Source of the DNA: Dechloromonas sp. ZY10
GTDB taxonomy: Bacteria > Pseudomonadota > Gammaproteobacteria > Burkholderiales > Rhodocyclaceae
Direction of reading: 5' to 3'
NCBI RefSeq assembly: GCF_041378895.1
Contig: NZ_CP144212.1
Location: 1,969,501-2,033,500, forward strand
Length of the DNA stretch: 64,000 nucleotides
This document shows positions 586-61,342 of the stretch, one piece after another (positions within the stretch are counted from its first letter, which is position 1; each line of letters begins with the position of its first letter). The position numbers were made by a program, and so were the translations under genes. The notes beneath the pieces were generated by a model. It saw nothing but the letters and a program-made list of their open reading frames with translations. It made no database searches and was not told the DNA's origin.

Positions 586-1262
586 TGGTCCCTGCCGCCA
601 ACCCGACCCTTGCGGTCCGCGCACTGCGTTACCAATGGCCCGGCCACCCCGACTTCGTGCTGAATGTGCCCGATTTCACGGTCGACCGTGGTCAGAGCCT
701 GTTTTTGCACGGCCCCAGCGGCAGCGGCAAATCCACCCTGCTCAACCTGCTCGGCGGCGTACTGCAACCGCAGGCCGGCCATATCGAACTGCTCGGCCAG
801 GTCATTTCCGACTGGCCGGCTCGTCGCCGCGATGCGTTCCGGGCCGATCACATCGGCTTCATCTTCCAGCAGTTCAACCTGATCCCCTATCTCTCGCTGC
901 TCGACAACGTCCTCCTGCCCTGCCGCTTTTCCCGCCGCCGTGCCGACCGTGCCGGTCAGCCGGTGGAAGCGGCGGCGGCGCTGCTGCACGCCCTCGAAAT
1001 CGCCACCGAACTCCATGCCCGCCCGGCGCACACGCTGTCGGTCGGGCAACAGCAGCGGGTCGCGGCAGCCCGGGCCTTGATCGGCGGACCGGAAATCCTG
1101 ATTGCCGACGAACCGACCTCGGCGCTCGACGCCGGTCGCCAAAGCGCCTTTGTCGACCTGCTGCTGGCGCAGGCGAGCGCGCACCACAGCAGCGTTGTCT
1201 TGGTCAGCCACGACCTCCACCTGGCGCGCCATTTCAGCGCCGTACGCGCGTTGAACGGATGA
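582..1262 (+). CDS. ABC transporter ATP-binding protein of the ZrgA-type operon
   Basis: A 226-residue LolD/MacB-type ATPase. Walker A is GPSGSGKST (about residues 44-52), the Q-loop lies in IFQQFNLIPY, the signature is LSVGQQQR (canonical LSGGQ with one change), and Walker B is ILIADEP followed by TSALD. The H-loop is VLVSHD. Translation is coupled to the DUF2796 gene: a GTG at 582 or the ATG at 585 overlaps its stop codon. The partner permease follows. A perfect copy of the window's iterated palindrome (677-690) lies in frame and encodes FTVDRG just before Walker A. Confidence 0.9.
   Translation: MMVPAANPTLAVRALRYQWPGHPDFVLNVPDFTVDRGQSLFLHGPSGSGKSTLLNLLGGVLQPQAGHIELLGQVISDWPARRRDAFRADHIGFIFQQFNLIPYLSLLDNVLLPCRFSRRRADRAGQPVEAAAALLHALEIATELHARPAHTLSVGQQQRVAAARALIGGPEILIADEPTSALDAGRQSAFVDLLLAQASAHHSSVVLVSHDLHLARHFSAVRALNG
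677..690. repeat. Iterated palindrome, copy 1 (CACGGTCGACCGTG, in coding sequence)
   Basis: A 14-bp perfect palindrome containing the 12-mer ACGGTCGACCGT. It lies inside the ABC ATPase gene and is preceded by TTT, like several other copies. Confidence 0.85.
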
Positions 1263-1434
1263 AGGCAAGCCCGATCAGCTTGTCGTATTGTCCCCGATGG
1301 CCGCCCGAAGGCTGCCGGCGGCCCAGCGCACCCATGCAACGGCATGTGCTTTCAGCAATGCCCGCACCGCCCCCTTTTTGCAGCACCGACCGGCGGCGGT
1401 CTGCCCCCTCCCTATCCGAGATCGGCTGCGCCGC

Positions 1435-2718
1435 ATGAACGCCCCCTCATTTCTGCTGCCGCTGGCCGCCGCCAGTGCCTGGAACCGGCGCGCTACGCTG
1501 GGCCTGACCCTGTGTGCGGTACTGCTCGCCAGTACCCTGCTGCTGGCCACCGAACGCCTGCGCCACGATGCCCGCCACAGTTTTTCCCAGGCCGTTGCCG
1601 GCAGCGACCTGATCGTCGGTGCCCGGGGCAGCGCCTTGCAATTGGTCCTGCATGCCTTGTTCCGCATTGGCGAAGCGAATGTGCCGGTGAGTTGGGCCAG
1701 CTACCGGAAAATTGCTGCCGATCCGGCAGTGGCCTGGAGCATTCCGCTGGTACTGGGCGACTCGCATCGCGGCTATCCGGTGATCGGCACCAGCGGCGAC
1801 TACTTCCGGCATTTCCGGCATGGCCTGGGCACCCCATTGCACTTTGCCGCAGGCCGGGCTTTTGCCGACGACGACAGCGGCCTGTTCGAAACCGTGATCG
1901 GTGCCGAAGTCGCTCGGCAACTCGCTTACCGACCCGGTGAGCGAATCATCCTCAGCCACGGCGATGCCGCATTCGCGCCGGCTGAACACCAGGACAAGCC
2001 GTTTATCGTGGTCGGGATACTGGCGGCGACCGGAACCCCGGCGGACCGCAGCATCCACATCCCGCTGGCGGCCAGCACCGCACTCCACCTCGACTGGCAA
2101 GGCGGCCTGCCCCTGCCTGGTCTCCGAATTCCAGCGGAATACGTCGGCAAATTCGATCTGACGCCGCATGAAATCGACGCTTTTCTGCTTGGTCTGCGCC
2201 AGCGAACCTCGGTGTTTTCCCTGCAGCGGCAAATCGCCGCCTTCGACGGCGAGCCATTGCAAGCGGCGCTGCCCGGGATAGTTCTCGATCAGCTATGGAG
2301 CCGCCTGACCTTCGGTGAACAACTGCTGCGCGGCCTCTCCTGGCTGATTCTCAGCCTCAGTCTATGCAGCCTGCTGGCAGTCATGCTGGCCGGACTGGGC
2401 GAGCGCCGCCGCGAACTCGCGATCCTGCGCGCGGTCGGTGCCAGCGCTGGGCATATCATCGGCTTGCTGCTGCTCGAAAGCCTGCTGATCGGCCTGCTCG
2501 GCAGCCTCGGCAGCGTCTTGCTGCTGGCGCTGCTAAGCAGCCAGTGCGCGCCCTGGCTGGCCGCGCACTGGGGCATTGTCGTTTCGTCGCCCTGGCCGCA
2601 GAGCGATGAACTGCCCCGCCTTGCCGCGATTCTCGCCACCTGCCTGCTGGCCGGCCTGCTCCCCGGTTGGCGCGCCAGCCGACTGGCCCTCGCCGACGGC
2701 CTGACACCGCGCCTGTAA
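1435..2718 (+). CDS. FtsX-type ABC transporter permease
   Basis: About 427 residues with the FtsX/MacB permease layout. One membrane segment lies near residues 17-37 (LGLTLCAVLLASTLLLA). A large periplasmic region follows to about residue 300, then three C-terminal membrane segments. The cytoplasmic GERRRELAILRAVGAS motif lies between TM2 and TM3 and is the coupling element typical of these permeases. I chose ATG 1435 because homologues begin just before the first helix. The frame is open back to 1288, but those 49 residues are basic and proline-rich and do not look like a membrane protein N-terminus. It pairs with the upstream ATPase. Confidence 0.87.
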   Translation: MNAPSFLLPLAAASAWNRRATLGLTLCAVLLASTLLLATERLRHDARHSFSQAVAGSDLIVGARGSALQLVLHALFRIGEANVPVSWASYRKIAADPAVAWSIPLVLGDSHRGYPVIGTSGDYFRHFRHGLGTPLHFAAGRAFADDDSGLFETVIGAEVARQLAYRPGERIILSHGDAAFAPAEHQDKPFIVVGILAATGTPADRSIHIPLAASTALHLDWQGGLPLPGLRIPAEYVGKFDLTPHEIDAFLLGLRQRTSVFSLQRQIAAFDGEPLQAALPGIVLDQLWSRLTFGEQLLRGLSWLILSLSLCSLLAVMLAGLGERRRELAILRAVGASAGHIIGLLLLESLLIGLLGSLGSVLLLALLSSQCAPWLAAHWGIVVSSPWPQSDELPRLAAILATCLLAGLLPGWRASRLALADGLTPRL

Positions 2719-2742
2719 CCTGCTCTGCATCTGCCCTCGCCC

Positions 2743-3453: not shown

Positions 3454-3974
3454 ATGGCGCCCGAGGCAGTGCGTGTCGACTGCAGCAACTCAAACCTGGT
3501 CGCCCCCCAGGCCGGCAGCTGCAGCGGCGGCAAGAACTCGGGCAAGCGCGTCAATTTGCGCACCAGCGTCAGATGGGGAACAAATGGCCGGCCGGCTTCC
3601 GGCACGGAAAAACCGGCCCTTTCCACGGTCGACCGTAGCATGGCCGAAAATTCCGCCAGTTTCGGCACCGCCGGCTGGAGGCCGGCCCATAGCAATCGCT
3701 GGTGCGGCCAGACCGCCAGCGGCCCGAATTGCAAATCCAGGCGCGGCCAGGCCTGCGCCGCCTGGCTGGCTGCGGCAAGCAGCGCGGGCAAGTCGGTAGC
3801 AGCTAGATCACCGAGAAACAACAGGGTCAGGTGCAGATTGACGGCGGGCACCGGGCGGCCACCGTATTCGCCGGCCAAGCTGGCGGCGTGCGCGGCCAGA
3901 GCAGTCGCCAGAGCCGGCGGTAAAGGCAGGGCGAAAAAAAGGCGCAACCGTTCGCCGGCTGCGCCTTGGTTCAA
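3420..3974 (-). CDS. thpR: RNA 2',3'-cyclic phosphodiesterase (2'-5' RNA ligase family)
   Basis: About 184 residues. Two HxTx motifs of the 2H phosphoesterase family are present, NLHLTLLFLG and FVPHLTLVRK. Each histidine contributes to hydrolysis of 2',3'-cyclic phosphates; E. coli ThpR opens these to 2'-phosphates. The frame is open up to an ATG at 4058, but that would run 74 bases into iscX. A TTG at 3974, 11 bases after the iscX stop, gives a length normal for the family, so I use it. No strong ribosome site is visible. It is the last gene of the isc operon and its 3' end overlaps the convergent DUF3299 gene. Confidence 0.8.
   Translation of the reverse strand: MNQGAAGERLRLFFALPLPPALATALAAHAASLAGEYGGRPVPAVNLHLTLLFLGDLAATDLPALLAAASQAAQAWPRLDLQFGPLAVWPHQRLLWAGLQPAVPKLAEFSAMLRSTVERAGFSVPEAGRPFVPHLTLVRKLTRLPEFLPPLQLPAWGATRFELLQSTRTASGAIYRPLGAWPAP
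3625..3636. repeat. Iterated palindrome, copy 2 (12-mer, in thpR)
   Basis: Perfect ACGGTCGACCGT inside thpR, flanked on the left by TTTCC. The outer bases are not symmetric. Confidence 0.8.
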
Positions 3975-3984
3975 ATGCTCAGTC

Positions 3985-10829: not shown

Positions 10830-10854
10830 ATAACCTAGTATTACGGTCAACTAT
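10830..10854. promoter_or_regulatory. Probable type 1 IscR operator
   Basis: A 25-base site, read on the minus strand as ATAGTTGACC-GTAATA-CTAGGTTAT. It fits the IscR type 1 consensus (ATASYYGACT-N6-AGTCRRSTAT) closely and overlaps the -10 region of the iscR promoter. Binding of [2Fe-2S]-IscR here would block transcription. Confidence 0.8.
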
Positions 10855-10879
10855 ACCCAAGACAGACAAAATTAGTCAA
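10850..10879 (-). promoter_or_regulatory. Sigma-70 promoter of the isc operon
   Basis: On the minus strand, -35 TTGACT (10874-10879) and -10 TATAGT (10850-10855) are separated by 18 bases. The -35 lies inside the last codons of cysE. Thus iscR can be transcribed independently of cysE. Confidence 0.7.
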
Positions 10880-11715: not shown

Positions 11716-12033
11716 TCAGAATTTTTCCTGGCGCAGCACCTGCACCTCGCTGAGGTAGCAGACCATGGCATAGTCGGCAAAATAGCGGTGCTGCAAATGG
11801 CGTGCAATCACTCGCCCGGTTGCCAAGTCACAAAGAATTTCAAAGCGCACATTACCACTGTGGTGCCACGATGCATCGCGGCGCCCATGGCTGCCGCACC
11901 CGCGCGCATCAATCACGGTGTAGCCGCGCGCACCCAGACGCATCGCATCCTCGGCAACCAGGTTTTCCAATTCAGCCTCGCAAACCACGGTCAACAACTT
12001 CAGGGGATGAAAATCCGGATCTTCGGTCAGCAT
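11716..12033 (-). CDS. SbtB-like PII-type signalling protein
   Basis: 105 residues. The PII-like fold is recognisable from KLLTVVCEAELENLVAEDAMRLGARGYTV, RFEILCD and a C-terminal HRYFADYAMVCYLSEVQVL, which match cyanobacterial SbtB. SbtB binds cyclic AMP and other adenyl nucleotides and controls SbtA. The protein ends shortly after EVQVL and lacks the cysteine-bearing C-terminal redox loop of many SbtB proteins. Its ATG overlaps the permease stop by one base (TAATG), so the two are coupled. Confidence 0.82.
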   Translation of the reverse strand: MLTEDPDFHPLKLLTVVCEAELENLVAEDAMRLGARGYTVIDARGCGSHGRRDASWHHSGNVRFEILCDLATGRVIARHLQHRYFADYAMVCYLSEVQVLRQEKF

Positions 12034-15387: not shown

Positions 15388-15569
15388 CCAGCGGGTTGAG
15401 TCCGGGTACAAAAACCACACCATCAGCCAATAACGGTCACGTGATGAATCCGTGTTTTCACTATGCCGAAAGCGAACTCAAATTTGTGGCAGAACTGCAA
15501 AAACACGGTCGACCCGATAAATACCGATGTTTCCAAGTTAATCCAGCAAATAATGCGCCAGGCAGATAT

Positions 15570-16776: not shown

Positions 16777-18107
16777 TGCCCAACTCACTCCTCGCCCGCA
16801 CCTTTTTGTTGCTGGCGCTACTCGCACTGCTGACCACGACGGCCTGGCTGTCACTCTTCCGCCACCTTGATGCCGAGCCCCGGGCTCGCGAGTCGGCGCA
16901 GCTCGCGGCGTCCACGGTCAACCTGATCCGGGCTGCCTTGTTCGCAGCCACTCCGGAAAAGCGCCCCGGACTGTTTGCCGAACTATCACAGCGCGAAGGT
17001 CTCCGCCTATTGCCAGCGGAACCCGGGGACCAGGTCGAGGCCATGCCAGAGGGTCGTTTCTTCCAGCTGCTGCAAGGCGAAATCAGCGCTCGCCTCGGCC
17101 CGCAAACCCGCATTGCAGCAGCTGTCGACGGCGTCCCGGGATTCTGGATCAGTTTCCGGCTTGACGAACAGGACGACGACGAATACTGGCTGGTCCTGCC
17201 CCGCGACCGCGCTCGTCGCGACTTCACCCGACAATGGCTGCTCTGGGGCCTGCTGGCTACCGGCCTGTCATTGGCAATTGCCTGGCTGATCGCCTCGCGG
17301 ATCAGCCGCCCACTCAAAGCCCTCGCGGCGTCGGCCCGCTTGGTCGGCAGCGGCCAGCAGCCGCCGCAACTGCCGGAAACCGGCGCTGAAGAATTACGCC
17401 AACTGGCAGCAGCGTTCAATGCCATGGCGGGTGATCTGGCCCGCCACGAAAAGGATCGCTCCGAAGTCCTCGCCGGAATTTCGCACGATCTGCGCACGCC
17501 GCTGACCCGGCTGCGGCTGGAAGCTGAAATGTCGATCGCCGACTCTGCAGCGCGCGACGCCGCCGTGGCTGACATCGCGCAAATGGAAACCGTAATTGCG
17601 CAGTTCATGGACTACGCCCGCTCGGAGGCCGGCGAAACTCCGTTTAGCTGCGCCCTCTCGCCGCTGCTGGCGACGCTGGTCAGTCAGCGACGGGCGCTCG
17701 GCCAGGATGTCCATGGCGAACTGGAGGAACTCCCTGCCTCCGCCCTGCGACCGCATGCCATTCTGCGCGCCGTTGCCAACCTGCTCGACAATGCCTGGAA
17801 ATATGCCCACGACAGCGATGGCCGGAGCAGCCGGATCGACTTGCTGGCGAACCTGCAGGCAGGGGAAATCAGGATCGAAGTCGCCGACCGTGGCCCGGGC
17901 ATTCCGGAGAGCGAGGTCGAACGCCTGAAGCGGCCGTTTACCCGACTGGAGGATGCACGCACCGACGCCCTCGGCGCCGGGCTCGGGCTGGCCATCGTCG
18001 AACGAGTGGCACGCCTGCACGGCGGCCGCCTGGAATTGCTGCCCCGCGCCGGAGGAGGCCTCCGAGCCCGCCTCTGCCTGCCCCTCCGCGAGACCGATTC
18101 AGGCTGA
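16776..18107 (+). CDS. envZ: EnvZ-like sensor histidine kinase
   Basis: 443 residues. TM1 lies near residues 5-27, a periplasmic region follows, and TM2 lies near 150-170 with a HAMP linker (SRISRPLKALAASARLV). The H-box is GISHDLRTPLTRLR, the N-box NLLDNAWKYA, and the G-boxes VADRGPGIPE and GAGLGLAIVERV. The ATG overlaps the ompR stop (TAATG). It converges with the HDOD gene after only ten bases. Confidence 0.9.
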   Translation: MPNSLLARTFLLLALLALLTTTAWLSLFRHLDAEPRARESAQLAASTVNLIRAALFAATPEKRPGLFAELSQREGLRLLPAEPGDQVEAMPEGRFFQLLQGEISARLGPQTRIAAAVDGVPGFWISFRLDEQDDDEYWLVLPRDRARRDFTRQWLLWGLLATGLSLAIAWLIASRISRPLKALAASARLVGSGQQPPQLPETGAEELRQLAAAFNAMAGDLARHEKDRSEVLAGISHDLRTPLTRLRLEAEMSIADSAARDAAVADIAQMETVIAQFMDYARSEAGETPFSCALSPLLATLVSQRRALGQDVHGELEELPASALRPHAILRAVANLLDNAWKYAHDSDGRSSRIDLLANLQAGEIRIEVADRGPGIPESEVERLKRPFTRLEDARTDALGAGLGLAIVERVARLHGGRLELLPRAGGGLRARLCLPLRETDSG

Positions 18108-19271: not shown

Positions 19272-22177
19272 CCTTTCAACTCCTCAAGCACCAACAGGCG
19301 ACCGCCTCCACTCCCAAGACGGAGCGGGTGCCAGCCGGCGAAAAATTGCCGCGCCCCCAAGTTGACCGTGGCACTGCCGTTCATATCAGCCAAGATCGGC
19401 ATGGTTTCAGCCAGAGGCAGGCCAATGCACAGACCGGACTCGCCGAGACACGCAAGCGCCCGGTCATTGGCCATGACCACCACGCCTTCATCGTCCACGC
19501 CCAAGACCGGCCACGGCAGCTGGCTGACAATGTCCTCAAGCAGGCGGGCAGCCTGACCGCCCTGCCCCTGCAAGCGACGATTTTCCTCAAGCAACTCGCG
19601 GCGTTCGTGCTCGACACGCAGCAACTGCCGTTCGGCCGCCTCGATTTCCTGTTGCAATTGCCGATGCTCATCTGCCAGATGACTCTGGCTCAGCGTTTCC
19701 TCAAGCAGGCTGCGCAAGGCGACCGGATCGAGCGGCACCGGCAGGATGCGCACACGCCCTGCCAGCGCGGGCCGGTTCAGTGCCGGCAAGGCCAGGCAAG
19801 CTGCATCGGCAAGCAGGAAACCATGACACTGGGCCTGGCTGTGAAATACTTCGTTGAGCAATGCCAAGGTGTCGTTACCTGGCATCGGAGCACCACAAAT
19901 CACCACCTCTGCCCGATTGCTGGACAGCCAGGCCGAGGCGGTCGCACAATCAGCCACCACCTCGACCCGATGGCCATCGCGGCGCAAGGCATCCAGGGTG
20001 TCACCGGGCGCGTCGACGGCAACAAAGAGCAGCAACGGCTCGCGCGTCGGCGACCGCAGCAGATTGCCGGGCAGGGCTTTGCCGGAACGCAGCAAATCGG
20101 CCATTTCATCAACCGGCAACGGTCGTGAAAAGAAATAGCCCTGGATCACATCGCACTGATGTGAAATCAGCAGCGCCAGCTGCTCGGCGGTTTCGACGCC
20201 TTCGGCCACCACCTGCAGCTTGAGATGGTGCGCCATGGTGATCACCGCCCGCGTGATCGAGGCATCATCGGCATCGGCGGCAATATCCTGAACAAAGGAA
20301 CGATCGACCTTGACCGTATCGAGGGGAAAGCGCTTGAGATACGCCAGGCTGGAGTAGCCGGTACCGAAATCGTCGAGCGACAAGGTCACGCCCATGGCCT
20401 TGAGTTCCCCCAGCAGCACCACCGCCGCATCGGCGTTTTGCATCAGCATGCTCTCGGTAATTTCAAGATCGAGCATTGCCGGTGGCAGTTCGCTATCGGC
20501 CAAGGCTTGCGCGACATCACGCAAGAGCGTATCCGATTCGAGCTGGCGCGCCGAAAGATTGACCGAAACGCTGGGCAACTCCAGCCCTTCGGCACGCCAG
20601 GCCAGCATTTGCCGGCAGGCCTCCTGCAGCACCCAGCGCCCGACTGGCAGGATCAGGCCGGTTTCTTCCAGCAAAGGGATGAACTGGTCGGGCGGCACCA
20701 GCCCGCGCCGGGGATTGCGCCAGCGGATCAGTGCTTCGGCACCGACAATACGACCACTGGTACAACAGGCCTTGGGCTGGTAGTAGAGCAGGAACTCCTG
20801 GTTGAGAATGGCATTGCGCAGATCGGTTTCCAGGTACAGCCGATTGCGCACATCGCTGTGCATCGACGGTGCGTAGGCCTGGTAGTTGTTGCGCCCCTGC
20901 TTCTTGGCCTGGCGCATTGCCGCCTCGGCATTGGTCAGCAGTTCGTGCGCATCCTTGCCGTCATCCGGAAAAAACGCGATGCCGATACTTGCGGTGGCAA
21001 AAACGTCCTGCCCCTTGACCCGAATCGGCTGGATCAGGGTTTCGATCACCCGACGGGCAACGATCCCGGCCTGCTCCATTTCCGAAACATCGGGCAAAAG
21101 CGCAGCAAAGACATCGCCGCCGATCCGCCCGAGCACGTCGGATTCGCGCACCGAACCGGACAGCCGCCCGGCGATCTGGCGCAGCAACTCGTCACCGGAA
21201 AAATGCCCGAGAGTCTGATTGAGCTCACGGAAATGGTCGATATCGACCAGCAGGACAGCCAATGGAAAATTCTTGCGCCGGGCCAGGGCGATCTGCTGCC
21301 GTGCCTGATCGTAAAACATCAGCTGGTTCGGCAAGGCAGTCAGCGAGTCGAAGTGGGCCAGGCGAATCTGATCGCTCGCTCCGACAAAGACTTCGGTCAC
21401 ATCAGTGGCGATGCCGCCGACACTATTCAGCTGGCCGCGCTCGTCATGTACCTCGAAGGTCCGTACGTGCAGCCAACGCAATTGTTCCCCCGGCCGCACA
21501 ATCCGGAAACGCTGATCGAGCCCGCCGTAGGGCCGTTCGGCCAATGCGCTGCGCAAGTCGGCCAGATCTTCGGGATGGACGTAGCGCAGGCCGTCTTCCG
21601 GATCGGCATATAAATCCTCGACCCGATGACCCCAAATCTGCTCGTAGGCCTGATTGACGAAGGTGACCTGGCCGCTGGCCACGTCGGTGAGCCAGTAACA
21701 CTCAGGGATATTCCGCGCGAGTTGCAGGAAGCGCGCCTCACTGCAATCGACCGGCTGATCGCGCCGGCATTTGAGCGGCAGACCGCACTCGCGCTCGACC
21801 ACGCCGAGCAGGCGGGCCGGATTGCTCTTGAGCACGAAATCGCACACCCCGCCGGCCAGCAGTTGCGCCGGCAATTCGCTCTGATCACGGTCGACGGTCA
21901 GCACCACCGGAATTTCAGGAGCCTGCTGGCGCAAAATCTGCAGCAAATCGGCCACATCGACGCCCGGCAAGCGCCCCGCCAGCAACGCAATCGCCCAAGG
22001 GCCGTTGGCCAGGGCCATCCGCAATTCATCGTCCGTGATCGCAAAACAGGACTCCAGGGCATAACCACGCCCCTGCAAGACCCGTAACAGGCGCTCGCCA
22101 TCCTTGCGGTCGGCCTCCAGCAACAAGATCCGTAAACCTGCCGTTGGCGACAAACCGAGTGATTCAATCTCCATCAA
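19268..22177 (-). CDS. Multidomain REC-PAS-GGDEF-EAL-REC-PAS signalling protein
   Basis: 969 residues. A receiver-like domain (about 14-130) is followed by a PAS/PAC (about 150-255). The GGDEF domain (about 270-430) has its signature changed to GGDVF, so cyclase activity is doubtful. The EAL domain (about 440-690) keeps EALIRW, NLSARQ, ITES, DDFGTGYSS, KVDRSF and EGVET, and should hydrolyse c-di-GMP. A second receiver-like region (about 700-820), a coiled coil and a terminal PAS-like domain follow; this long C-terminal extension is unusual. It sits 16 bases after ispF and overlaps the next gene. Confidence 0.9.
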   Translation of the reverse strand: MMEIESLGLSPTAGLRILLLEADRKDGERLLRVLQGRGYALESCFAITDDELRMALANGPWAIALLAGRLPGVDVADLLQILRQQAPEIPVVLTVDRDQSELPAQLLAGGVCDFVLKSNPARLLGVVERECGLPLKCRRDQPVDCSEARFLQLARNIPECYWLTDVASGQVTFVNQAYEQIWGHRVEDLYADPEDGLRYVHPEDLADLRSALAERPYGGLDQRFRIVRPGEQLRWLHVRTFEVHDERGQLNSVGGIATDVTEVFVGASDQIRLAHFDSLTALPNQLMFYDQARQQIALARRKNFPLAVLLVDIDHFRELNQTLGHFSGDELLRQIAGRLSGSVRESDVLGRIGGDVFAALLPDVSEMEQAGIVARRVIETLIQPIRVKGQDVFATASIGIAFFPDDGKDAHELLTNAEAAMRQAKKQGRNNYQAYAPSMHSDVRNRLYLETDLRNAILNQEFLLYYQPKACCTSGRIVGAEALIRWRNPRRGLVPPDQFIPLLEETGLILPVGRWVLQEACRQMLAWRAEGLELPSVSVNLSARQLESDTLLRDVAQALADSELPPAMLDLEITESMLMQNADAAVVLLGELKAMGVTLSLDDFGTGYSSLAYLKRFPLDTVKVDRSFVQDIAADADDASITRAVITMAHHLKLQVVAEGVETAEQLALLISHQCDVIQGYFFSRPLPVDEMADLLRSGKALPGNLLRSPTREPLLLFVAVDAPGDTLDALRRDGHRVEVVADCATASAWLSSNRAEVVICGAPMPGNDTLALLNEVFHSQAQCHGFLLADAACLALPALNRPALAGRVRILPVPLDPVALRSLLEETLSQSHLADEHRQLQQEIEAAERQLLRVEHERRELLEENRRLQGQGGQAARLLEDIVSQLPWPVLGVDDEGVVVMANDRALACLGESGLCIGLPLAETMPILADMNGSATVNLGARQFFAGWHPLRLGSGGGRLLVLEELKG

Positions 22178-22676: not shown

Positions 22677-23371
22677 TTGCGCCCCCGCAAGATCATCGCT
22701 GCCAGCACCAGATCGGCTGGATAAGTCACCTTGAGATTGGTCGAATCGCCGCGCACCAGACGTGGCGCCATACCATCCCCCTCGATCGCCCCGGCCTCAT
22801 CGGTCACTTCGCGACCGGCAGCACGGGCATTTTCCAGCGCCCGGCAGAGTCGACCGTAGCGGAACATCTGCGGCGTCTGTGCCTGCCACAAACCATCGCG
22901 CGGCTCAGTAGCTGCAACCCGTGCGGCGGCATCGGCCCGCTTCAGGGTATCGGCCACCGGCACGGCCAGAATGCCGCCAACCGGGTCGCTCGCCAGTTCG
23001 GCAAATAGCGCCTGCAGCATCGCCTGCGACAAACAGGGCCGGGCAGCGTCGTGCACCAGAATCCAGTCATCGTCGGCAGCCACCATTGCCGCCGCCTTGA
23101 GCCCGTTACCGACACTGGCCGCGCGGGTAGCCCCGCCGCAGCGCAGGGTCTCCAGCTTGCTGCCCAGTTCAGACCAGTCGTACTGCGACCACCAGTCGTC
23201 CTCCGGCGACAGCACTACCCACACCCGCTCGATCTCGGGACAAGTCACCAGAGTTTGCAAAGTGTGAAAAATCAACGGCCTGCCGAGCAGGTCGAGGTAT
23301 TGCTTGGGCTGCTCGGCACCGAAGCGCGAACCGCTGCCGGCAGCGGGAACAATTGCGAAATGACGTTGCAT
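22673..23371 (-). CDS. ispD: 2-C-methyl-D-erythritol 4-phosphate cytidylyltransferase
   Basis: 232 residues. The nucleotide-binding start [26 protein letters not shown] and the later [12 protein letters not shown] are diagnostic. It transfers CMP to MEP, the third step of the pathway. It is the first gene of the minus-strand unit that continues through ispF to the c-di-GMP genes. Confidence 0.96.
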
Positions 23372-25170: not shown

Positions 25171-25184
25171 TTTTCACGGTCGAC
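25171..25184 (+). repeat. Iterated palindrome, partial copy in the parE leader
   Basis: TTTTCACGGTCGAC matches the left and central part of the repeated palindrome; the right half is lost. It lies 24 bases before the parE ATG. Confidence 0.6.
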
Positions 25185-25207
25185 TCCGTTTTTTTGTGAT
25201 TTTGCCC

Positions 25208-27169
<1,962 letters not shown>

Positions 27170-30523: not shown

Positions 30524-30582
30524 AGAACGACCGCCAACCGCCGGTCAGGGCTGAGGTTCAAGCCCCGATCACCGGGCCACCC

Positions 30583-30594
30583 ACGGTCGACCGT
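30583..30594. repeat. Iterated palindrome, copy 3 (12-mer, intergenic)
   Basis: Perfect ACGGTCGACCGT between two convergent genes (92-aa membrane protein and methyltransferase). Confidence 0.85.
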
Positions 30595-30614
30595 AGCCGA
30601 TGGCCTTTTTGCGG

Positions 30615-36239: not shown

Positions 36240-36245
36240 AAAACT

Positions 36246-36275
36246 CCGGTTTCCACGGTCGACCGTGGAAACCGG
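36246..36275. repeat. Iterated palindrome, copy 4 (30-bp perfect palindrome)
   Basis: The core ACGGTCGACCGT is extended on both sides to CCGGTTTCC...GGAAACCGG without a mismatch (30 bp). It lies between rlmJ and the DUF3429 gene, six bases after the rlmJ stop. It has no T run after it, so it is not a standard terminator. Confidence 0.9.
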
Positions 36276-36371
36276 CCAAAACCGTGCGCGGCCGGCTCGT
36301 GCCGCGCCATGCCCGGCACGAACGATTCCCGGCAAGCGCAGTCCTATGGCAAACCTGCCGAGGAGTCTGCC

Positions 36372-38187: not shown

Positions 38188-39453
38188 ATGCTCCTTGCCT
38201 CACTCAATTCGCGCATTCTCGCCGGCTGCCTGCTCGGTCTCGCTGGCGGCAGCTGGCTGGCCGGCCACCCGGGGGAACCGCTCACGGTCAACACACTGTA
38301 TGCGGCAAAAATGCTCGGCAACCTGTTTCTCGACCTGCTTCGGATGGTGCTGGTGCCGCTAATCTTCGCCTCGATTGCCGGCGGCGTTGCCAACCTGCGC
38401 GCGCATCACCAGATGCACCGGGTATGGACTACGACACTGGTGTTCTTTTTTGCCACCATGGCACTGGCAATCTTGATCGGCTTCTCCGCCGCACACCTGT
38501 TCCGCCCCGGAGAAGGCCTGCAGTTGGCCATGTTTGCCGATGCCACGGCGCACTACCAGGCACGCCAGATGCCACTGCCGGACTACCTTGCACAATTCAT
38601 GCGCGGGCTGTTCCAGAATCCGTTCAAGGCACTGGCCCAGGGCGACATCCTCGCCGTCGCGATCATCGGGCTGTTTCTTGGGGTCGCACTGGTAATTGGC
38701 GGCGAACGCTTCAAACAGCTGCGACAGCTGATCGACGAGTTGCAGGACTTGTGCCTGCTGATCGTTGGCTGGATCATGCACCTGGCCCCATTCGGCCTCG
38801 CCGCGCTACTGCTGCAACTGGTTGCCACTCAACAAGGAGCCCTGCTCGCCAGCCTCGGCCATTTCATCGCAGTGGTCACCGGTACTACGCTGTTCCACGG
38901 ACTGATCGTACTACCGGCCCTGCTCTGGCTGTTCACCCGCATCTCGCCAAGCAAATTTTTCAAGGGTGCGCGCGAAGCCCTGGTCACCGCCTTCGTTACC
39001 TCGTCGAGCGCCGCAACGCTACCGATCACCTTGCGCTGTACCGAACAGCACCTGCATGTGCGCAAGGACATCGCCGGCTTCGTGATTCCGCTCGGGGCGA
39101 CCGTGAATATGGACGGCACGGCGCTGTACGAAGCGGCTGCCGCACTTTTCGTTGCCCGCCTGGCCGGCATCGAACTCGATCTCGCCAGCCAGGCCATCGT
39201 CTTCGCCGTGGCCATGCTGGGAGCCATCGGCGCCCCGGGGATTCCCAGCGTCGGGATGTTGTCGATGGTGCTGGTGCTGGAATCGGTCGGATTGCCGACC
39301 GAGGCGATTGCCATCCTGCTGCCGATTGACCGCCTTCTGGATACCACACGAACAATGGTCAATGTCGAAGGCGACATGGTCGGCAGCCTGATTGTGCAGA
39401 AGCTCGCCGGCAGCGACGCCGAGACGGCCGGCACCAGCCGGCAGCCAGCCTGA
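38188..39453 (+). CDS. Dicarboxylate/amino acid:cation symporter (DAACS family)
   Basis: 421 residues, about eight membrane helices plus two re-entrant loops. Family signatures are the serine-rich loop FVTSSSAATLPITLR and the IPLGATVNMDGTALYEA motif, followed by GIPSVGMLSMVLVLESVG and LLPIDRLLDTTRTMVNVEGD. It resembles GltP/DctA. Whether the substrate is glutamate, aspartate or a C4-dicarboxylate cannot be told. Divergent from the MazG-like gene by 103 bases. Confidence 0.92.
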   Translation: MLLASLNSRILAGCLLGLAGGSWLAGHPGEPLTVNTLYAAKMLGNLFLDLLRMVLVPLIFASIAGGVANLRAHHQMHRVWTTTLVFFFATMALAILIGFSAAHLFRPGEGLQLAMFADATAHYQARQMPLPDYLAQFMRGLFQNPFKALAQGDILAVAIIGLFLGVALVIGGERFKQLRQLIDELQDLCLLIVGWIMHLAPFGLAALLLQLVATQQGALLASLGHFIAVVTGTTLFHGLIVLPALLWLFTRISPSKFFKGAREALVTAFVTSSSAATLPITLRCTEQHLHVRKDIAGFVIPLGATVNMDGTALYEAAAALFVARLAGIELDLASQAIVFAVAMLGAIGAPGIPSVGMLSMVLVLESVGLPTEAIAILLPIDRLLDTTRTMVNVEGDMVGSLIVQKLAGSDAETAGTSRQPA

Positions 39454-40632
39454 TTAACGCGAGTAGAGGAGATCGCCGGGGCGGACCACCAGCGTCGCTG
39501 GCTTCTCGCGCAACTCGACTACGGCGAAGCGCGGATAGACCTCGCGAATCACCGCCTGCACTGCCGCCCCGCGCTCCCTGCCCAGGGCAGTGCCCGCTGG
39601 CGTAGCAATTTCGCCGTTTTTCCAGGTCTGCAGCAGCAATACATCGCCGGCACTCAAACCCGCTTCGCTACCAGCATCGATATGCAGGGTCCTGGAGTTT
39701 TTTGGCCCGGTTTTGACTACCCGGGCGATGAAGGGCAAACAAGACGCGCGCTGCTCTGCCCACTGGGCTATTTCGTCGAGCAAGGCCATCCAGCCCTGAC
39801 CAAAGTCGGTCGCCGCAAAAGCCGCCGTGCCAATGGTGTGTTTGCTGCTGATTTCGGCTCGCCCGCCAAGTTCGCGGGCAAAAACCTGGCGCGCCAGCAG
39901 TTCACCGCTGGCTGGATCGTGCAGGAAGGCCTCGATCTGCAAGTTGCGCTTGCGATCTACCCACGGCCCCTGCACGCCAAGGTCGCGGTACACTCCGGAA
40001 AGCAAATACTGCCCCCGCTGCCCGCCAAGGATTTCGGCAGAGGCTGCCGGATCGCGCAACAACGGCGCCCGTGCCGGCGAACGATAGGGAAAGTGCGCAT
40101 CATCGGCTACTGCCGGCAAACGCCCGCGCTGCTCCAACCGCCGTGCCAGCGCCAGCGCGGTAGCACCAGCAAGCCGGGCCGGTTCATCGAACTGCTTCTG
40201 TTCCGGGTACTCAAGCGCGAAGGCAGCCACCAGCAAGCGGTTGCGATAGCTGACCAGACATTCGCGGCGACACGCCTCGCGCTCGGCAACTTCGACCCGC
40301 AAAGACACGGTCAACTCCTTGCCGGTGACTTTTTCGGCGATCTGCTCGCTGCGCCCGGTGCAGGCATCGGCGGCAACCTGCACGCTTTCCTGGAGCACAC
40401 CGGACTCAACCACTGCCCGCGAACTGACCCGCGCACCATGAAATTCGGCGGCCCGCGCCAGCGCCCGCCGGATCGCCTCCTCACGGGCCGCGCCGATGCC
40501 AGCTGCGCCGATCACCGCGCTTCCCTCGACCGTGACCTCGGCGGCCTTCAGTGGGGTGCAGCAGGCTGCCAGTGCCAACAGCAAGGGCAGAAAGCGGTTC
40601 CGACTCACCGGCAAAACGGGCTGGCGCGACAA
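39454..40632 (-). CDS. flgT: Flagellar assembly protein FlgT-like
   Basis: About 392 residues from TTG 40632, which follows the flgP stop by one base and has a GGAAAG site. The frame is open to 40719 without a better start. A signal peptide (RFLPLLLALAACCTPLKAA) precedes EVTVEGSAVIG, matching the FlgT N domain. The middle domain carries two disulfide-capable cysteine pairs, and the C-terminus (DAGSEAGLSAGDVLLLQ) is the FlgT C domain. In Vibrio FlgT forms the H ring with FlgO and FlgP. No other motor genes are adjacent. Confidence 0.8.
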   Translation of the reverse strand: MSRQPVLPVSRNRFLPLLLALAACCTPLKAAEVTVEGSAVIGAAGIGAAREEAIRRALARAAEFHGARVSSRAVVESGVLQESVQVAADACTGRSEQIAEKVTGKELTVSLRVEVAEREACRRECLVSYRNRLLVAAFALEYPEQKQFDEPARLAGATALALARRLEQRGRLPAVADDAHFPYRSPARAPLLRDPAASAEILGGQRGQYLLSGVYRDLGVQGPWVDRKRNLQIEAFLHDPASGELLARQVFARELGGRAEISSKHTIGTAAFAATDFGQGWMALLDEIAQWAEQRASCLPFIARVVKTGPKNSRTLHIDAGSEAGLSAGDVLLLQTWKNGEIATPAGTALGRERGAAVQAVIREVYPRFAVVELREKPATLVVRPGDLLYSR

Positions 40633-47040: not shown

Positions 47041-47052
47041 TTCACGGTCGAC
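47041..47052 (+). repeat. Iterated palindrome, partial copy
   Basis: TTCACGGTCGAC followed by TGCC, in the 59-base gap between the convergent kinase and ybbA genes. The right arm is lost; the same TGCC variant occurs at 49922. Confidence 0.6.
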
Positions 47053-47089
47053 TGCCGCCCGGGGCAAAATCCGGGCGCTGGCCGCGCAT

Positions 47090-49491: not shown

Positions 49492-49537
49492 GATTTTTCT
49501 CTGTTTTCACGGTCGACCGTGAAAACAGAGAAAAATC
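49492..49537. repeat. Iterated palindrome, copy 5 (46-bp perfect palindrome)
   Basis: The core ACGGTCGACCGT is extended to 23-base arms that are perfectly complementary (GATTTTTCTCTGTTTTC and complement on the far side). It begins directly after the mnmH stop and ends ten bases before the methyltransferase stop. In RNA it would form a 23-bp hairpin on either strand, so it may terminate transcription in both directions. Confidence 0.93.
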
Positions 49538-49547
49538 AGCCGCTGTT

Positions 49548-50096
49548 TCACCCACTCACCCGACGCGCCACGATAGCCTGCCGCACCGCCGGCCTGGGCT
49601 GTTCGACATACCCCTCGGCAAAAGCGATTTCCTGCAAGCCGGCAGCACCACAGCGCGCCCGCAATTCGCCCGGTTGAAGCAGAAAATCCGGACGCGATGG
49701 CTTGCCATAGGCGGCATTCCCCTGCATGAAGGTCTCGTACACCAACACCCCGGCGGGCGCCAGCAGTGCCAGCAAGGCATCGAAACGCGGCCGCCACAGA
49801 TAATTGGTGACGATCACTGCGGCAAAGCGTTCTCCAGCCAGCGGCCAGTTCTCGCCCTCCAGGTCGCAGCAACGGGTCGATACTCCCGGCAATCCGGCGA
49901 GCGACTGCAAAGCGGCAGAATCACGGTCGACTGCCAAAAACCGCAATTCCTCGCTCGCCACGGCTGCTGCCCGGTATTCGGCCAACCAGCGCAAATGCCG
50001 GCCCCGCCCGCAGGCCAGATCGAGGATGCAACCGCGCCTGGGCAATTGCGCGGCATGTGCCAGCAACCACGGCGAGGGCGGTATGATCGCGTTCAT
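49548..50096 (-). CDS. SAM-dependent methyltransferase
   Basis: 182 residues from ATG 50096 (MNAIIPPSPWLLAHAAQLPRRG). Motif I is ILDLACGRGRHLRWLAE and the acidic position FLAVDRD; motif IV is AAVIVTNYLWRP. It resembles small class I methyltransferases of the tehB/ubiE type; the substrate is unknown. An alternative start (50117) would overlap the OsmC start codon of the divergent gene by two bases. A partial iterated palindrome lies inside (49922-49931). Confidence 0.78.
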   Translation of the reverse strand: MNAIIPPSPWLLAHAAQLPRRGCILDLACGRGRHLRWLAEYRAAAVASEELRFLAVDRDSAALQSLAGLPGVSTRCCDLEGENWPLAGERFAAVIVTNYLWRPRFDALLALLAPAGVLVYETFMQGNAAYGKPSRPDFLLQPGELRARCGAAGLQEIAFAEGYVEQPRPAVRQAIVARRVSG

Positions 50097-50666: not shown

Positions 50667-53384
50667 ATGTTGGAACAGCACTATCTCACCGCGCTTTTCG
50701 AGCCCAAATCGGTGGCTGTGATCGGCGCCTCCGAACGCGAGAACTCGGTCGGCAACGTCATTTTCCGGAACATCAAGAACTCGGGGTACAAAGGTCGGCT
50801 CTACCCGATCAACCCCAAGCACGAAACCATCCTCGGCGAGAAGGCCTACAAGTCGATCGAGGAAATCGGTGCCCGGGTCGAAATGGCGGTGATCGCCACC
50901 CGTCCGCAGACCGTGCCGCAGATCATCGAACAATGTGGCCGCAGCAGCGTCCGCAACGTGATCATCATCAGTGCCGGCTTCTCCGAATCCGGCCACATCG
51001 GCGCTGCGCTCGAACGCAAGGTGCTGGAAATTGCCCGCTCCTACAACGTCCGCATTCTCGGCCCCAACTGTCTCGGCATCATCCGCCCCGACCTCGGCCT
51101 CAACGCCACCTTCGCCAAGGTCAGCGCCAACCCGGGCAACCTGGCGCTGGTTTCGCAATCGGGCGCGATGTGCTCGGCGGTACTTGACTGGGCCAAGGCC
51201 AACCAGGTCGGTTTTTCGTCGGTGATTTCGCTGGGCGTCACCACCGACGTCGACTTCGGCGAGATTCTCGACTATCTGATCTACGACAGCCGCACCCACT
51301 ACATCCTGATGTACGTCGAGGGCATCCGCAACGCCCGCCGCTTCATGAGCGCACTGCGTTCGGCCGCCCGCATCAAGCCGATCATCCTGCTCAAGGCCGG
51401 CCGCCACGAAGCCGGTTCGCAGGCCGCGCTGGCCCACTCCGGGATGACCGCCGTTTCCGACACCGTGTTTGACGCCGCCGTGCGCCGTGCCGGTGTTGTT
51501 CGCGTGCAGAACGTCGGCCAGCTGTTCTACGCCGCCAAGGCGCTCGCCTCCAAGTTCCGCCCGCAGGGCAACCGTCTGGCGATCATCACCAACGGCGGCG
51601 GACCGGGCGCAATGGCCGCCGACCGCGCCGGCGACTTCGGGATTCCGCTGGCGCAATTGTCCGACGAGACCATGGCCAAGTTGAACAAGGCCTTGCCGAC
51701 CACCTGGTCGCACAGCAACCCGATCGACATCGCCGGCGATGCCACGCCGGAGCGCTACCGTGAAACGATCATGGCGGTGACCCAGGATCCCAACGTCGAT
51801 AGCACCCTGGTGATGCTGACACCGCAGGCGATGACCGAACCGCTGGAAGTGGCCAAGGCGATCCTCGAAATCTCTGACAAGCTCAACCGCTCGCTGATCT
51901 GCTGCTGGATGGGCGAGGAACAGGTGGCCGAGGCCCGCAAGCTGCTCGAAGACAATGGCATTCCCGCCTTCCGCATGCCGGAAACCGCGATCGAGCTGTT
52001 CCACCACATCTCCAAGTACTACCGCAACCAGAAGCTGCTGCTGCAGGCACCGGAGCCGACCCGCCAGTACGACCGGCCGGAAACCGAAGGTGCCAAGATG
52101 CTGATCGAGGCGCTGCTCGCCGAACGGCGCAAGGTACTCTCCGAAATGGAATCGAAGGCGATCCTGCGCGCCTTCAAGGTGCCGGTGGCGCAAACCATGG
52201 TTGCCCGCACCGCGACCGAAGCCCTGCTGCTCGCTGAGCAGATCGGTTTCCCGGTGGCAATGAAGGTCGATTCACCGGATCTGACCCACAAGTCCGACGT
52301 CGGCGGCGTCCGCCTCAACATCGTCAATGCCCCGGCCGTCCGCAATGCCTATCACGACATCATCGATACCGTGCAGAAGCGCCGTCCGGATGCCAAGATC
52401 AACGGCGTCTCGATCGAACCCTTCCTGTCGCGCCCGAACGGCCGCGAACTGATGATCGGCGTCTTCCGCGACCCGATCTTCGGGCCGGTGATCACCTTCG
52501 GCGCCGGTGGTTTCGACGTCGAAATCTTCTCCGACCGCTCGGTCGCGCTGCCGCCGCTGAACAAATTCCTGGCCAAGGACCTGATCGACTCGACCCGGGC
52601 ATCGAAGATTCTCGGCCAGTTCCACAACATGCCGCCGGTCGACCGTGAAGCAATCAAGGAAGTCCTGCTCTGCATTTCGGAAATGGTTTGCGAACTGCCG
52701 TGGATTCAGGAACTCGACCTCAACCCGCTGATCGTCGATGAAAACGGTGCGATTGCGGCTGATGCCCGCATCGTCATCGACCACACCGCCGGTGCGTCGG
52801 GTGACCGCTACGCGCACATGTCGATCTACCCTTACCCGGTACACCTGATCCAGGAATGGACGATGAACGACGGCAAGACCGTCACCATCCGCCCGATCCG
52901 CCCGGAAGACGCGGAAATGGAGCAGGACTTCGTCAAGAACATGTCCGACGAGTCGCGCTACTACCGCTTCATGGATACCCTGCGCGAACTGACCCAGACC
53001 ATGCTGGTCCGCTTCACGCAGATCGACTACGACCGCGAAATGGCGCTGGTGGCGACGCTGCCGCGCGAGATCGAGGACAACGTCGACGGCGTCGAGCCGC
53101 CGGAACTGCAGATCGGCGTTGCCCGCTACGTGCTCAATCCGGATGGGGAATCGGTCGAATTCGCGCTGGCGGTCGGCGATGATTGGCAGAAGTGCGGCGT
53201 CGGCCGCAAGCTGATGACGGCGCTGATCGACTGTGCCCGCTTGAAGGGCTACCGCGCCGTAGTCGGCGACGTGTTGTCGACCAACACCAAGATGTTCCGC
53301 CTGATGACCAGCCTCGGCTTCACCATCCACCCGCACCCGGAAGACACCGCAGTCAAGCGCGTGGTCAAGCCGCTGACGGGCTAA
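50667..53384 (+). CDS. Pat-type protein acetyltransferase: acyl-CoA synthetase (NDP-forming) fused to GNAT
   Basis: 905 residues. N-terminal CoA-binding domain (SVAVIGASERENSVGN), succinyl-CoA ligase-like domain (about 150-300), ATP-grasp domain (about 480-700; DSPDLTHKSDVGGVRLNI) and C-terminal GNAT (about 730-900; acetyl-CoA motif WQKCGVGRKL). H257 (ALAHSG) aligns with the phosphohistidine of ADP-forming acetyl-CoA synthetases, so the first part may still be active. Related Pat/PatZ proteins acetylate and inactivate acetyl-CoA synthetase. The gene stands alone with its own terminator. Confidence 0.92.
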   Translation: MLEQHYLTALFEPKSVAVIGASERENSVGNVIFRNIKNSGYKGRLYPINPKHETILGEKAYKSIEEIGARVEMAVIATRPQTVPQIIEQCGRSSVRNVIIISAGFSESGHIGAALERKVLEIARSYNVRILGPNCLGIIRPDLGLNATFAKVSANPGNLALVSQSGAMCSAVLDWAKANQVGFSSVISLGVTTDVDFGEILDYLIYDSRTHYILMYVEGIRNARRFMSALRSAARIKPIILLKAGRHEAGSQAALAHSGMTAVSDTVFDAAVRRAGVVRVQNVGQLFYAAKALASKFRPQGNRLAIITNGGGPGAMAADRAGDFGIPLAQLSDETMAKLNKALPTTWSHSNPIDIAGDATPERYRETIMAVTQDPNVDSTLVMLTPQAMTEPLEVAKAILEISDKLNRSLICCWMGEEQVAEARKLLEDNGIPAFRMPETAIELFHHISKYYRNQKLLLQAPEPTRQYDRPETEGAKMLIEALLAERRKVLSEMESKAILRAFKVPVAQTMVARTATEALLLAEQIGFPVAMKVDSPDLTHKSDVGGVRLNIVNAPAVRNAYHDIIDTVQKRRPDAKINGVSIEPFLSRPNGRELMIGVFRDPIFGPVITFGAGGFDVEIFSDRSVALPPLNKFLAKDLIDSTRASKILGQFHNMPPVDREAIKEVLLCISEMVCELPWIQELDLNPLIVDENGAIAADARIVIDHTAGASGDRYAHMSIYPYPVHLIQEWTMNDGKTVTIRPIRPEDAEMEQDFVKNMSDESRYYRFMDTLRELTQTMLVRFTQIDYDREMALVATLPREIEDNVDGVEPPELQIGVARYVLNPDGESVEFALAVGDDWQKCGVGRKLMTALIDCARLKGYRAVVGDVLSTNTKMFRLMTSLGFTIHPHPEDTAVKRVVKPLTG

Positions 53385-53435: not shown

Positions 53436-53509
53436 CACTTTTGCCACCGCCCTGAGCGCCTACATCTTTGGCCCGCAAAATTCGCCTCCGGCGCAAAAAC
53501 TGTCGTTTT

Positions 53510-53523
53510 CACGGTCGACCGTG
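53510..53523. repeat. Iterated palindrome, copy 6 (CACGGTCGACCGTG)
   Basis: Perfect 14-bp palindrome preceded by GTTTT, between the terminators of two convergent genes. Confidence 0.88.
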
Positions 53524-53559
53524 GCTGGCGGTAACAATCAGCCCCACACCCCGGGAATG

Positions 53560-57311: not shown

Positions 57312-58124
57312 TCAATGCGCCACCGCCCCGCAGTATTTCAACTCGCCGGCCGGCACTGCGAACGGCAACCAGTTTTCCGGCGGTGGCAATGGGCAGGTGG
57401 CAAACGGGGTAAACGCGCAAGGCGGGTTGTAAGCACGGTTGAAATCCAGCGTGATCACCTCGCCCACCGGCCGGACTGCCTTGAGGAAACGGCCGGCACC
57501 ATAGCTTTCGCGCCCGCTGCTGCGATCGCGAAAAACGAAAAAGACCTCATTTTCATCGACACTCATCGGCAGCAAGCACACCTCGCTGCCTGCATGTACA
57601 AATACTGCCTGCCAAGCGATCTCGACTGGGCGCAGTTCGCCGGCCACATTGGGCACTTCGATCCGTACCGGTTCGGGCAAAGCCAGCCAGCGGGCTTCAA
57701 TCCGCCATTCCGGGGCTGGAGGAAAATAGTCTAGGCCGGCAAATGGCCGGCTTTGCGCCCACTCGCGGTCACGCAAGCGGAGGGCGAGGCGTCGGTCACG
57801 GTCGACCACGAAAAAGGACCAATTTTCGAGGTCGACCGTAGTAGGCGCTCCATCGCGGTCAGTGACCAGGGGTTTCATGACCCCATCGGTAGCCTGCCAG
57901 AACAGAAGATCCCGCTCTGGCTCCCAAACCACCTCGCCAGCACAAGCCGGCCCCGCCGGCAGGCGCAGCGGACAATCGGCGGCGGATCCCAGGACATTCC
58001 GTCCAGGCTCCAGCCAGAACAAGCCGGCCATACCCAGCCAGCTTTCCGCAGTTGCCAGTTCCTGCCGGCGGTTTGCTTGCCAGGCGGCCAGCGCGGCAGC
58101 GAATTCGGTATTCAATGAGTGCAT
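57312..58124 (-). CDS. DUF1684 family protein
   Basis: 270 residues. WRANRRQELATAESWLGMAGLFWL-type N-terminus, RIEVPNVAG, LDFNRAYNPPCAFTPFATCPLPPPENWLPFAV. This signature is diagnostic of DUF1684. No signal peptide. Function not established. Two copies or part-copies of the iterated palindrome lie in the coding sequence (57797-57807, 57830-57841). Ribosome site AAAGG. Confidence 0.88.
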   Translation of the reverse strand: MHSLNTEFAAALAAWQANRRQELATAESWLGMAGLFWLEPGRNVLGSAADCPLRLPAGPACAGEVVWEPERDLLFWQATDGVMKPLVTDRDGAPTTVDLENWSFFVVDRDRRLALRLRDREWAQSRPFAGLDYFPPAPEWRIEARWLALPEPVRIEVPNVAGELRPVEIAWQAVFVHAGSEVCLLPMSVDENEVFFVFRDRSSGRESYGAGRFLKAVRPVGEVITLDFNRAYNPPCAFTPFATCPLPPPENWLPFAVPAGELKYCGAVAH

Positions 58125-58596: not shown

Positions 58597-58609
58597 CGAC
58601 CGCTCTTCT

Positions 58610-61198
<2,589 letters not shown>

Positions 61199-61234
61199 TG
61201 CGCAGGCCTCCATGAATAGTTCCGATAAATCATC

Positions 61235-61262
61235 AAGTAAGGCAGTTTTGTGGTTTTTCAAG
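61235..61262 (-). promoter_or_regulatory. clpB: Probable sigma-32 (RpoH) promoter of clpB
   Basis: On the minus strand, CTTGAAA (61256-61262) and CCTTACTT (61235-61242) separated by 13 bases. The -35 matches the RpoH consensus exactly and the -10 partially (CCCCATNT). Confidence 0.6.
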
Positions 61263-61342
61263 CGTCGACCGTAAAAATCAGCCCGCCACCCTCCATAAGA
61301 ACTAGTTAAACAACCAGACAAAAATGATAAAATTGTTTACGC

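Follow-up and report, generated by a model that had tools for sequence, protein, structure and literature searches.

The stretch analysed here (the window) comprises 64,000 nucleotides of Dechloromonas sp. ZY10, positions 1,969,501 to 2,033,500 of a genome consisting of a single contig of 3,568,927 bp (3.57 Mb; G000 below), and carries many copies of a short directional repeat. The repeat unit is a one-directional, bipartite motif of about 30 bp, made of the core YACGGTC[G/A]AC and A/T patches downstream of it. The window holds 35 units fitting YACGGTC[GAC]AC, 31 of which have at least three A/T among the four positions +25..+28 (the numbering starts at 0 with the first base of the core 10-mer). 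Six overlapping opposed pairs of units make up the six perfect palindromes of the window, and one further inverted pair has separate cores (57797 and 57840). Among the genes that carry units, the one at 25208-27169 is more likely parE than gyrB, because a second gene, about 40% identical to it, sits at the very start of several chromosomes; the chromosome start is the usual location of gyrB. The units are:

677..705, + strand: unit CACGGTCGAC of palindrome pair 1, with its A/T tract downstream, in a gene for an ABC-transporter ATPase
662..690, - strand: opposed unit of palindrome pair 1 (12-mer 678-689)
3624..3652, + strand: unit of palindrome pair 2, in a gene for a LigT-like phosphoesterase
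3609..3637, - strand: opposed unit TACGGTCGAC of palindrome pair 2 (12-mer 3625-3636)
10842..10870, + strand: unit TACGGTCAAC, intergenic
11986..12014, + strand: unit CACGGTCAAC, in a called gene
15504..15532, + strand: unit CACGGTCGAC, intergenic
16913..16941, + strand: unit CACGGTCAAC, in a called gene
19342..19370, - strand: unit CACGGTCAAC, in a called gene
21886..21914, + strand: unit CACGGTCGAC, in a called gene
22830..22858, - strand: unit TACGGTCGAC, in a called gene
25175..25203, + strand: unit CACGGTCGAC, upstream of parE
25810..25838, + strand: unit CACGGTCGAC, inside parE
29538..29566, + strand: unit CACGGTCGAC, in a called gene
30582..30610, + strand: unit of palindrome pair 3, between convergent genes
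30567..30595, - strand: opposed unit of palindrome pair 3 (12-mer 30583-30594), weak A/T tract (2 of 4)
31975..32003, + strand: unit CACGGTCGAC, in a called gene
33582..33610, - strand: unit CACGGTCAAC, in a called gene
34636..34664, + strand: unit CACGGTCCAC, in a called gene
36254..36282, + strand: unit of palindrome pair 4, 15 bp after an RlmJ-family gene, 30-nt perfect hairpin (z -3.2)
36239..36267, - strand: opposed unit of palindrome pair 4 (12-mer 36255-36266)
38283..38311, + strand: unit CACGGTCAAC, in a called gene
40306..40334, + strand: unit CACGGTCAAC, in a called gene
47043..47071, + strand: unit CACGGTCGAC, between convergent genes
49508..49536, + strand: unit of palindrome pair 5, which forms a very stable terminator-like hairpin (-34.8 kcal/mol, z -8.5) between convergent genes
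49493..49521, - strand: opposed unit of palindrome pair 5 (12-mer 49509-49520)
49922..49950, + strand: unit CACGGTCGAC with a weak A/T tract (2 of 4), where a small called gene lacking a Pfam match begins
52619..52647, - strand: unit CACGGTCGAC, weak A/T tract (2 of 4), in a gene encoding CoA-binding, ATP-grasp and GNAT domains
53510..53538, + strand: unit of palindrome pair 6, between convergent genes
53495..53523, - strand: opposed unit of palindrome pair 6 (12-mer 53511-53522)
57797..57825, + strand: unit CACGGTCGAC facing the unit at 57812..57840, in a DUF1684 gene
57812..57840, - strand: unit TACGGTCGAC, inverted partner of the 57797 unit, with non-overlapping cores and a common A/T stretch between them
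59047..59075, - strand: unit CACGGTCGAC, weak A/T tract (2 of 4), in a called gene
59620..59648, - strand: unit CACGGTCGAC, in a called gene
61245..61273, - strand: unit TACGGTCGAC, intergenic

An earlier note on this DNA had singled out the palindrome itself, the 12-mer ACGGTCGACCGT. Its six perfect copies lie where that note placed them (6 against a mean of 0.01 in 100 dinucleotide shuffles of the window), 22 copies with at most two mismatches were counted against 2.95 expected, and the half and near copies it listed are all present in a table of the GTCGAC sites of the window. Over the whole G000 chromosome, the 12-mer occurs 247 times and the reversed-word control once. In the window plus 20 stretches of 20 kb (464 kb, 13% of the genome, the sample used for all G000 statistics below unless the whole genome is named), 74 copies at 37 places, counted on both strands, compare with 0.21 predicted by a third-order Markov model, the yardstick proposed by the note, and with 0.76 predicted by a fifth-order model. 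The refuting condition of the note, counts no higher than the third-order expectation, does not hold in this sample. The iteration of the 12-mer far above chance therefore holds genome-wide, but the palindrome is not itself what is repeated.

The 10-mer most in excess of the third-order Markov expectation is the asymmetric CACGGTCGAC/GTCGACCGTG (134 against 3.2, both strands), and CACGGTCGAC occurs 886 times over the G000 genome against 20 for its reversed control. A table of its single-base changes showed that position 0 is C or T and position 7 is G, A or, less often, C, while the remaining eight positions are essentially fixed. The GTCAAC form CACGGTCAAC (50 against 1.3 expected) is impossible within a GTCGAC palindrome, which means that the unit is directional; relative to expectation, this form is enriched 39-fold and the GTCGAC form 42-fold. 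Aligned copies share two A/T patches, one spanning roughly +14..+18 and the other, which is stronger, roughly +24..+29, the steps from core to first patch and from first to second patch each being about one helical turn. In the 110 copies within called genes, the first patch is weak (~0.3 bits) and the second remains strong (1.36 bits at +26), so that the second patch is no by-product of terminators. The palindrome consists of two such units that face each other and overlap by the shared GTCGAC (6 bp), and it sometimes forms a terminator-like hairpin.

With genes called by a simple script written for the analysis, 71 of the 134 CACGGTCGAC copies fall within genes, on either strand, and the remainder are intergenic. 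The copies favour non-coding DNA, yet many are coding. Their density per kb is highest between convergent genes and lowest between divergent genes, and that of the 12-mers peaks downstream of genes. Across 391 complete genes, 133 cores were counted against a mean of 14.2 (maximum 22) in 100 synonymous-codon shuffles; for the full bipartite motif, the count was 89 and the shuffle mean 1.6 (maximum 5). Spacing is more even than Poisson (variance/mean 0.59 over 92 bins of 5 kb; Poisson 95% range 0.73-1.30), and without one motif-poor stretch, L036, the ratio is 0.55 over 88 bins, with a mean gap of 2.1 kb. L036 belongs to a region at ~855-1054 kb of G000 (L036, L236-L239) that has a single perfect 12-mer in its ~199 kb, a lower motif density in most stretches sampled and, in parts, a lower G+C (GC) content. 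As a separate observation, the sense copies in genes favour one reading frame (54/74).

The pattern CGGTCRAC-N15-WWWW was searched on both strands in other genomes. The whole genome of G000 has 1162 occurrences. Among the 399 genomes of an order-wide scan, four other members of the genus have 989, 994, 763 and 98, and the 394 genomes from other genera, eight of them in the same family, have 37 or fewer; a phylum-wide scan of 398 genomes, whose set overlaps the first, gave 43 or fewer in the 397 others. Within the genus, which is probably the GTDB genus Azonexus (a genus that includes Dechloromonas), counts in 76 genomes, G000 among them, are bimodal: 40 carriers have 391-1785 motifs and 36 low genomes have 9-159, 28 of the latter having 60 or fewer. 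By parE, the nearest named relatives, and the sole close ones among 80 named loci, are HGW-Betaproteobacteria-6 (89%), with 4 motifs in 18 kb (L051), and Azonexus hydrophilus (86%), with 0 in 14 kb (L052). The palindromic 12-mer, which the earlier note suggested counting in related bacteria, is frequent in few of 60 genus genomes (247 in G000, 236 in G011, 120 in G031 and 27 in G019) and occurs at most seven times in the other 56. This scarcity in other carriers results from the different first bases of their cores.

Indeed, the carriers use dialects, in which the first bases differ around a fixed CGGTC[G/A]AC and the A/T tract stays in place: GCTGCGGTC[G/A]AC in G030, TTGCGGTCGAC in G008 and AGCGGTC[G/A]AC in G062. 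The consensus base that precedes CGGTC is G in 12 of 19 sampled carriers, A in six (including G000 and G011) and ambiguous in one, several of these calls resting on few copies. Where five or more cores were sampled (17 carriers), the four positions of the A/T tract are 52-85% A/T over a background of 32-45%; in ten low species, with only 2-22 cores each, the same positions are 31-50% A/T over a background of 37-44%.

How copies arise or disappear was followed at two sites in an alignment of the parE region of 18 species (12 carriers and six low), in which one of the two listed G017 parE copies was used. Upstream of parE (window 25175), each of the 12 carriers has a core in the same position, its first bases varying between species, and none of the six low species has one, although recognisable remnants persist in some, such as CTGCGGTGGACC in G068. 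At the site inside parE (window 25810), a core is present in eight of the 12 carriers and in none of the six low species. An opposite-strand core was found in G062 and G063 only. Since both cores lie in ungapped alignment, these two sites changed by point mutation and not by insertion. The natural reading of the carrier distribution would be repeated loss of the motif across the genus, and the low species probably represent independent losses. Where the motif is present inside parE (window 25810-25819 and orthologues), the residue after Val-Thr-Val is Asp; in the six low species and the four carriers without the core, it is Glu (alignment read by eye). The motif may thus cost protein changes.

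Acquired DNA in carriers lacks the motif where it was sampled. Insert DNA beside breaks in comEC of the carriers G084, G002 and G066 (50.5 kb) contained no bipartite motif against 10.7 expected from each genome's own motif rate (P=2e-5), and two bare cores; as the GC content of these inserts is 51-54%, lower GC may account for part of the deficit. Uptake sequences are expected to be rare in recently arrived DNA, according to PMC7811141.

The genome also encodes parts of a competence machinery. The comEC frame of G000 is stop-free over model positions 60-663, nearly the whole model, DprA is present, and one gene cluster encodes a ComP_DUS-family pilin, a GspH/FimT-family pilin, PilW and PilY1.

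From the architecture, distribution and dialects of the motif, we consider it highly probable that the repeat is a DNA-uptake sequence built like the uptake sequences (USS) of Pasteurellaceae, and that it biases natural transformation toward DNA of the cell's own group. A surface or type IV pilus receptor, most likely a minor pilin, would grip the CGGTC[G/A]AC core, the A/T tracts would ease bending of the duplex and the pilus would draw the DNA in, after which ComEC would pass one strand and DprA and RecA would recombine the DNA. Fragments bearing the motif would enter preferentially, and recombination would then spread mutations toward it (molecular drive). Copies would build up at permissive places, namely intergenic DNA, terminators, where inverted pairs make the palindrome, and tolerant sites within genes. 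Related species would have drifted to other first bases, giving the dialects, and in species that lost the bias, the copies would decay by point mutation.

The likeness to USS, seen here in sequence alone, is close. Uptake motifs are reported to be known only from Neisseriaceae and Pasteurellaceae, with the inner cores CTG and GCGG (PMC12616744). The traits given for USS and for the DNA uptake sequences (DUS) of Neisseriaceae in PMC1626085 closely resemble those found here, and include, for USS, two A/T segments 3' of the core at about single helical turns, emergence through point mutation and subclade-specific types that share a core. Like the USS, of which the Hin-type AAGTGCGGT and the Apl-type ACAAGCGGT were compared, the motif has a G+C core with CGGT and, downstream of it, two A/T-rich segments spaced by roughly one helical turn, is evenly spaced with a strong consensus, shows no insertion at the two sites compared and falls into types that differ in the first core bases; some 1500-2200 copies are reported for H. 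influenzae (PMC1626085, PMC7811141, PMC12616744). Unlike in USS, the fixed part extends to CGGTC[G/A]AC, and the distance from CGGT to the A/T tracts downstream is greater by about five bases (our own arithmetic from the positions in PMC1626085). The bacteria belong to a different class, one genus holds more dialects, nearly half of its species are in the low state, and the density, one place per 2.1 kb, is lower than in the USS/DUS trait list.

With DUS, whose receptor is ComP, the motif shares its copy number, dialects around a constant core and terminator-linked inverted pairs (PMC3630211). The sequences are unrelated, however: a DUS is a CTG-centred 10-12-mer described in PMC1626085 as without flanking motifs, and the G000 motif differs in both respects. 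DUS pairs are also non-overlapping except in one species (PMC3630211), whereas the palindromic units here overlap by 6 bp.

The earlier note knew of no description of the palindrome, and in the open-licence literature we likewise found no prior description of the motif. No uptake sequence described for Rhodocyclales or Dechloromonas was found there. In the same literature, Azonexus together with uptake sequences and natural transformation gave one paper, on gonococcal pili, in which the genus name occurs once (PMC7593972); uptake signal sequences in betaproteobacteria gave one review of pathogens, and searches for GGTCGACC as a palindrome, or for iterated palindromes or uptake sequences in this group, gave no relevant title among the matches listed.

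Several results weigh against an uptake sequence. No receptor was found: of the four families looked for throughout the genus, not one tells carriers and low species apart, since ComP_DUS (PF16732) is present in 70, GspH/FimT (PF12019) in 69, ComEC in 75 and DprA in 75 of the 76 genomes, in carriers and low genomes alike. Damaged comEC genes, split or frameshifted, occur in 3/35 carriers and 8/31 low species (p=0.097, with ten ambiguous genomes of the 76 dropped and classes assigned by us), and 23 low species have a comEC classed as intact; damage to comEC as the cause of motif loss was set aside, the association being a trend only. On a weakly resolved parE tree of the 18 species, the carrier label needs four changes, and its clustering is not significant (87/500 shuffles were as low). 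The carrier G024 has a weak A/T tract (52%, 14 cores). Some carrier stretches are poor in cores: the pilus or comEC stretches sampled have only 25-30 per 100 kb in G069, G084, G097 and G066, and 4 per 100 kb in G002, against 70-103 elsewhere. Finally, the motif-poor region at 855-1054 kb of G000 is not obviously mobile: L036 resembles, by eye, a flagellar cluster, and the explanation of the region as mobile DNA was dropped for that reason.

The minor-pilin region was also compared in 14 genomes, and none of the pilin genes of the G000 cluster has matches in carriers alone. Separately, this cluster (L222-L235) is extremely divergent, with 22-55% identity where the G000 protein was matched at all; for ParE, by contrast, identity is 87-98% in the 17 genomes with a match.

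Among other explanations, the repeat could be the binding site of an abundant intracellular protein, either chromosome-organising or a global regulator, with regularly spaced sites. The regular spacing throughout the genome and the asymmetric bipartite site with A/T tracts would suit such a protein. However, the perfect consensus YACGGTC[GAC]AC was counted 238 times in the 464 kb against 7.4 expected, and single mismatches at the eight fixed positions 186 times against 176; such a consensus without a halo of near misses is called unlike regulatory-protein sites in PMC1626085. The few copies in 36 of the 76 genus genomes, a density that peaks between convergent genes and is least between divergent ones, and the absence of the motif from the inserts sampled in carriers also speak against a binding site of this kind, which we consider unlikely.

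Four further candidates were rejected on the asymmetry of the unit, its distribution and strand, the parE sites, hairpin folding and the search for Y1_Tnp. The earlier note had likened the palindrome to the highly iterated palindrome HIP1 of cyanobacteria, which contains a palindrome and is likewise highly iterated (PMC4390886); a repeat of this kind would here be tied to an orphan methyltransferase or to repair. The 12-mer is indeed palindromic and strongly over-represented, but the unit is directional and bipartite, its GTCAAC form being enriched almost as much as its GTCGAC form, with two A/T tracts downstream, and the dialects change one side only. The comparison is thus very hard to sustain. 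Methylation of GTCGAC, which the note had proposed to look for, is itself unlikely because the GTCAAC form exists.

A conserved transcription-terminator hairpin and nothing else would agree with the density of the 12-mers after genes and with the strong hairpins of pair 4 (z -3.2) and pair 5 (z -8.5), both near gene ends. The other four palindromes of the window, however, do not fold clearly better than shuffles (z -0.55 to -2.04), and many single units, in genes and on both strands, have the same A/T tracts. A pure terminator is therefore very improbable, and use of the palindromes as terminators is at most a secondary role.

An oriented recombination or segregation signal, such as Chi or the FtsK-orienting polar sequences (KOPS), would likewise be asymmetric, abundant and evenly spaced. 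With the arms divided at the turn of the GC skew and the strand sums added by hand, no replichore strand bias was found in the sample (31 and 36 on the left arm, 51 and 48 on the right), which makes such a signal highly unlikely.

Least probable of all is a mobile repeat of the type of repetitive extragenic palindromes or bacterial interspersed mosaic elements (REP/BIME), which are intergenic hairpins, spread by a REP-associated tyrosine transposase (RAYT): it was raised in the earlier note and would fit the intergenic palindromes, two of the six in the window being strong hairpins, and the presence of Y1_Tnp in 22/40 carriers against 11/36 low genomes (p=0.039, maybe chance or shared ancestry), but Y1_Tnp was matched in neither G000 nor 17 others of the 40 carriers (33/76 genomes have one), about half of the copies are genic (71/134), and the two parE sites changed without gaps.

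It further seems fairly likely that a third bacterial family has evolved uptake sequences with the same grammar as Haemophilus and its kin but in a different class, that is, a CGGTC-type core with A/T tracts one and two helical turns downstream. This grammar would then be set either by the mechanics of passing duplex DNA through the outer membrane, for which the core must kink and the tracts bend, or by pilin receptors of a common kind. With a third independent family, the origin, dialect change and loss of uptake specificity could be traced over 76 related genomes. With some 40 carriers, several dialects and many low species, the genus would be an unusually good natural experiment for the receptor, which could be sought by comparing species that have pili and ComEC in common but different dialects. 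If the hosts live freely in water and soil, as is usual in this group, the trait would not depend on a mucosal habitat. These bacteria might also become easier to transform with DNA to which the motif has been added.

Inserts of ~2 to 64 kb have landed repeatedly in the comEC gene itself in this genus. In ten species, the gene is split into two or three pieces separated by ~2 to 64 kb: G088 (L245/L246), G002 (L247/L248), G018 (three pieces, L251-L253), G029 (L258), G060, G084, G066, G005, G098 and G099; the comEC of G035 looks frameshifted. Elements that silence the DNA channel of their host would fit the idea of a conflict between mobile DNA and transformation (PMC11472951, PMC12955456). In G088, G002, G018 and G029, a large serine recombinase-like protein with Resolvase and Recombinase domains is encoded beside a comEC fragment, in G088, G002 and G018 at about the same position in the gene.

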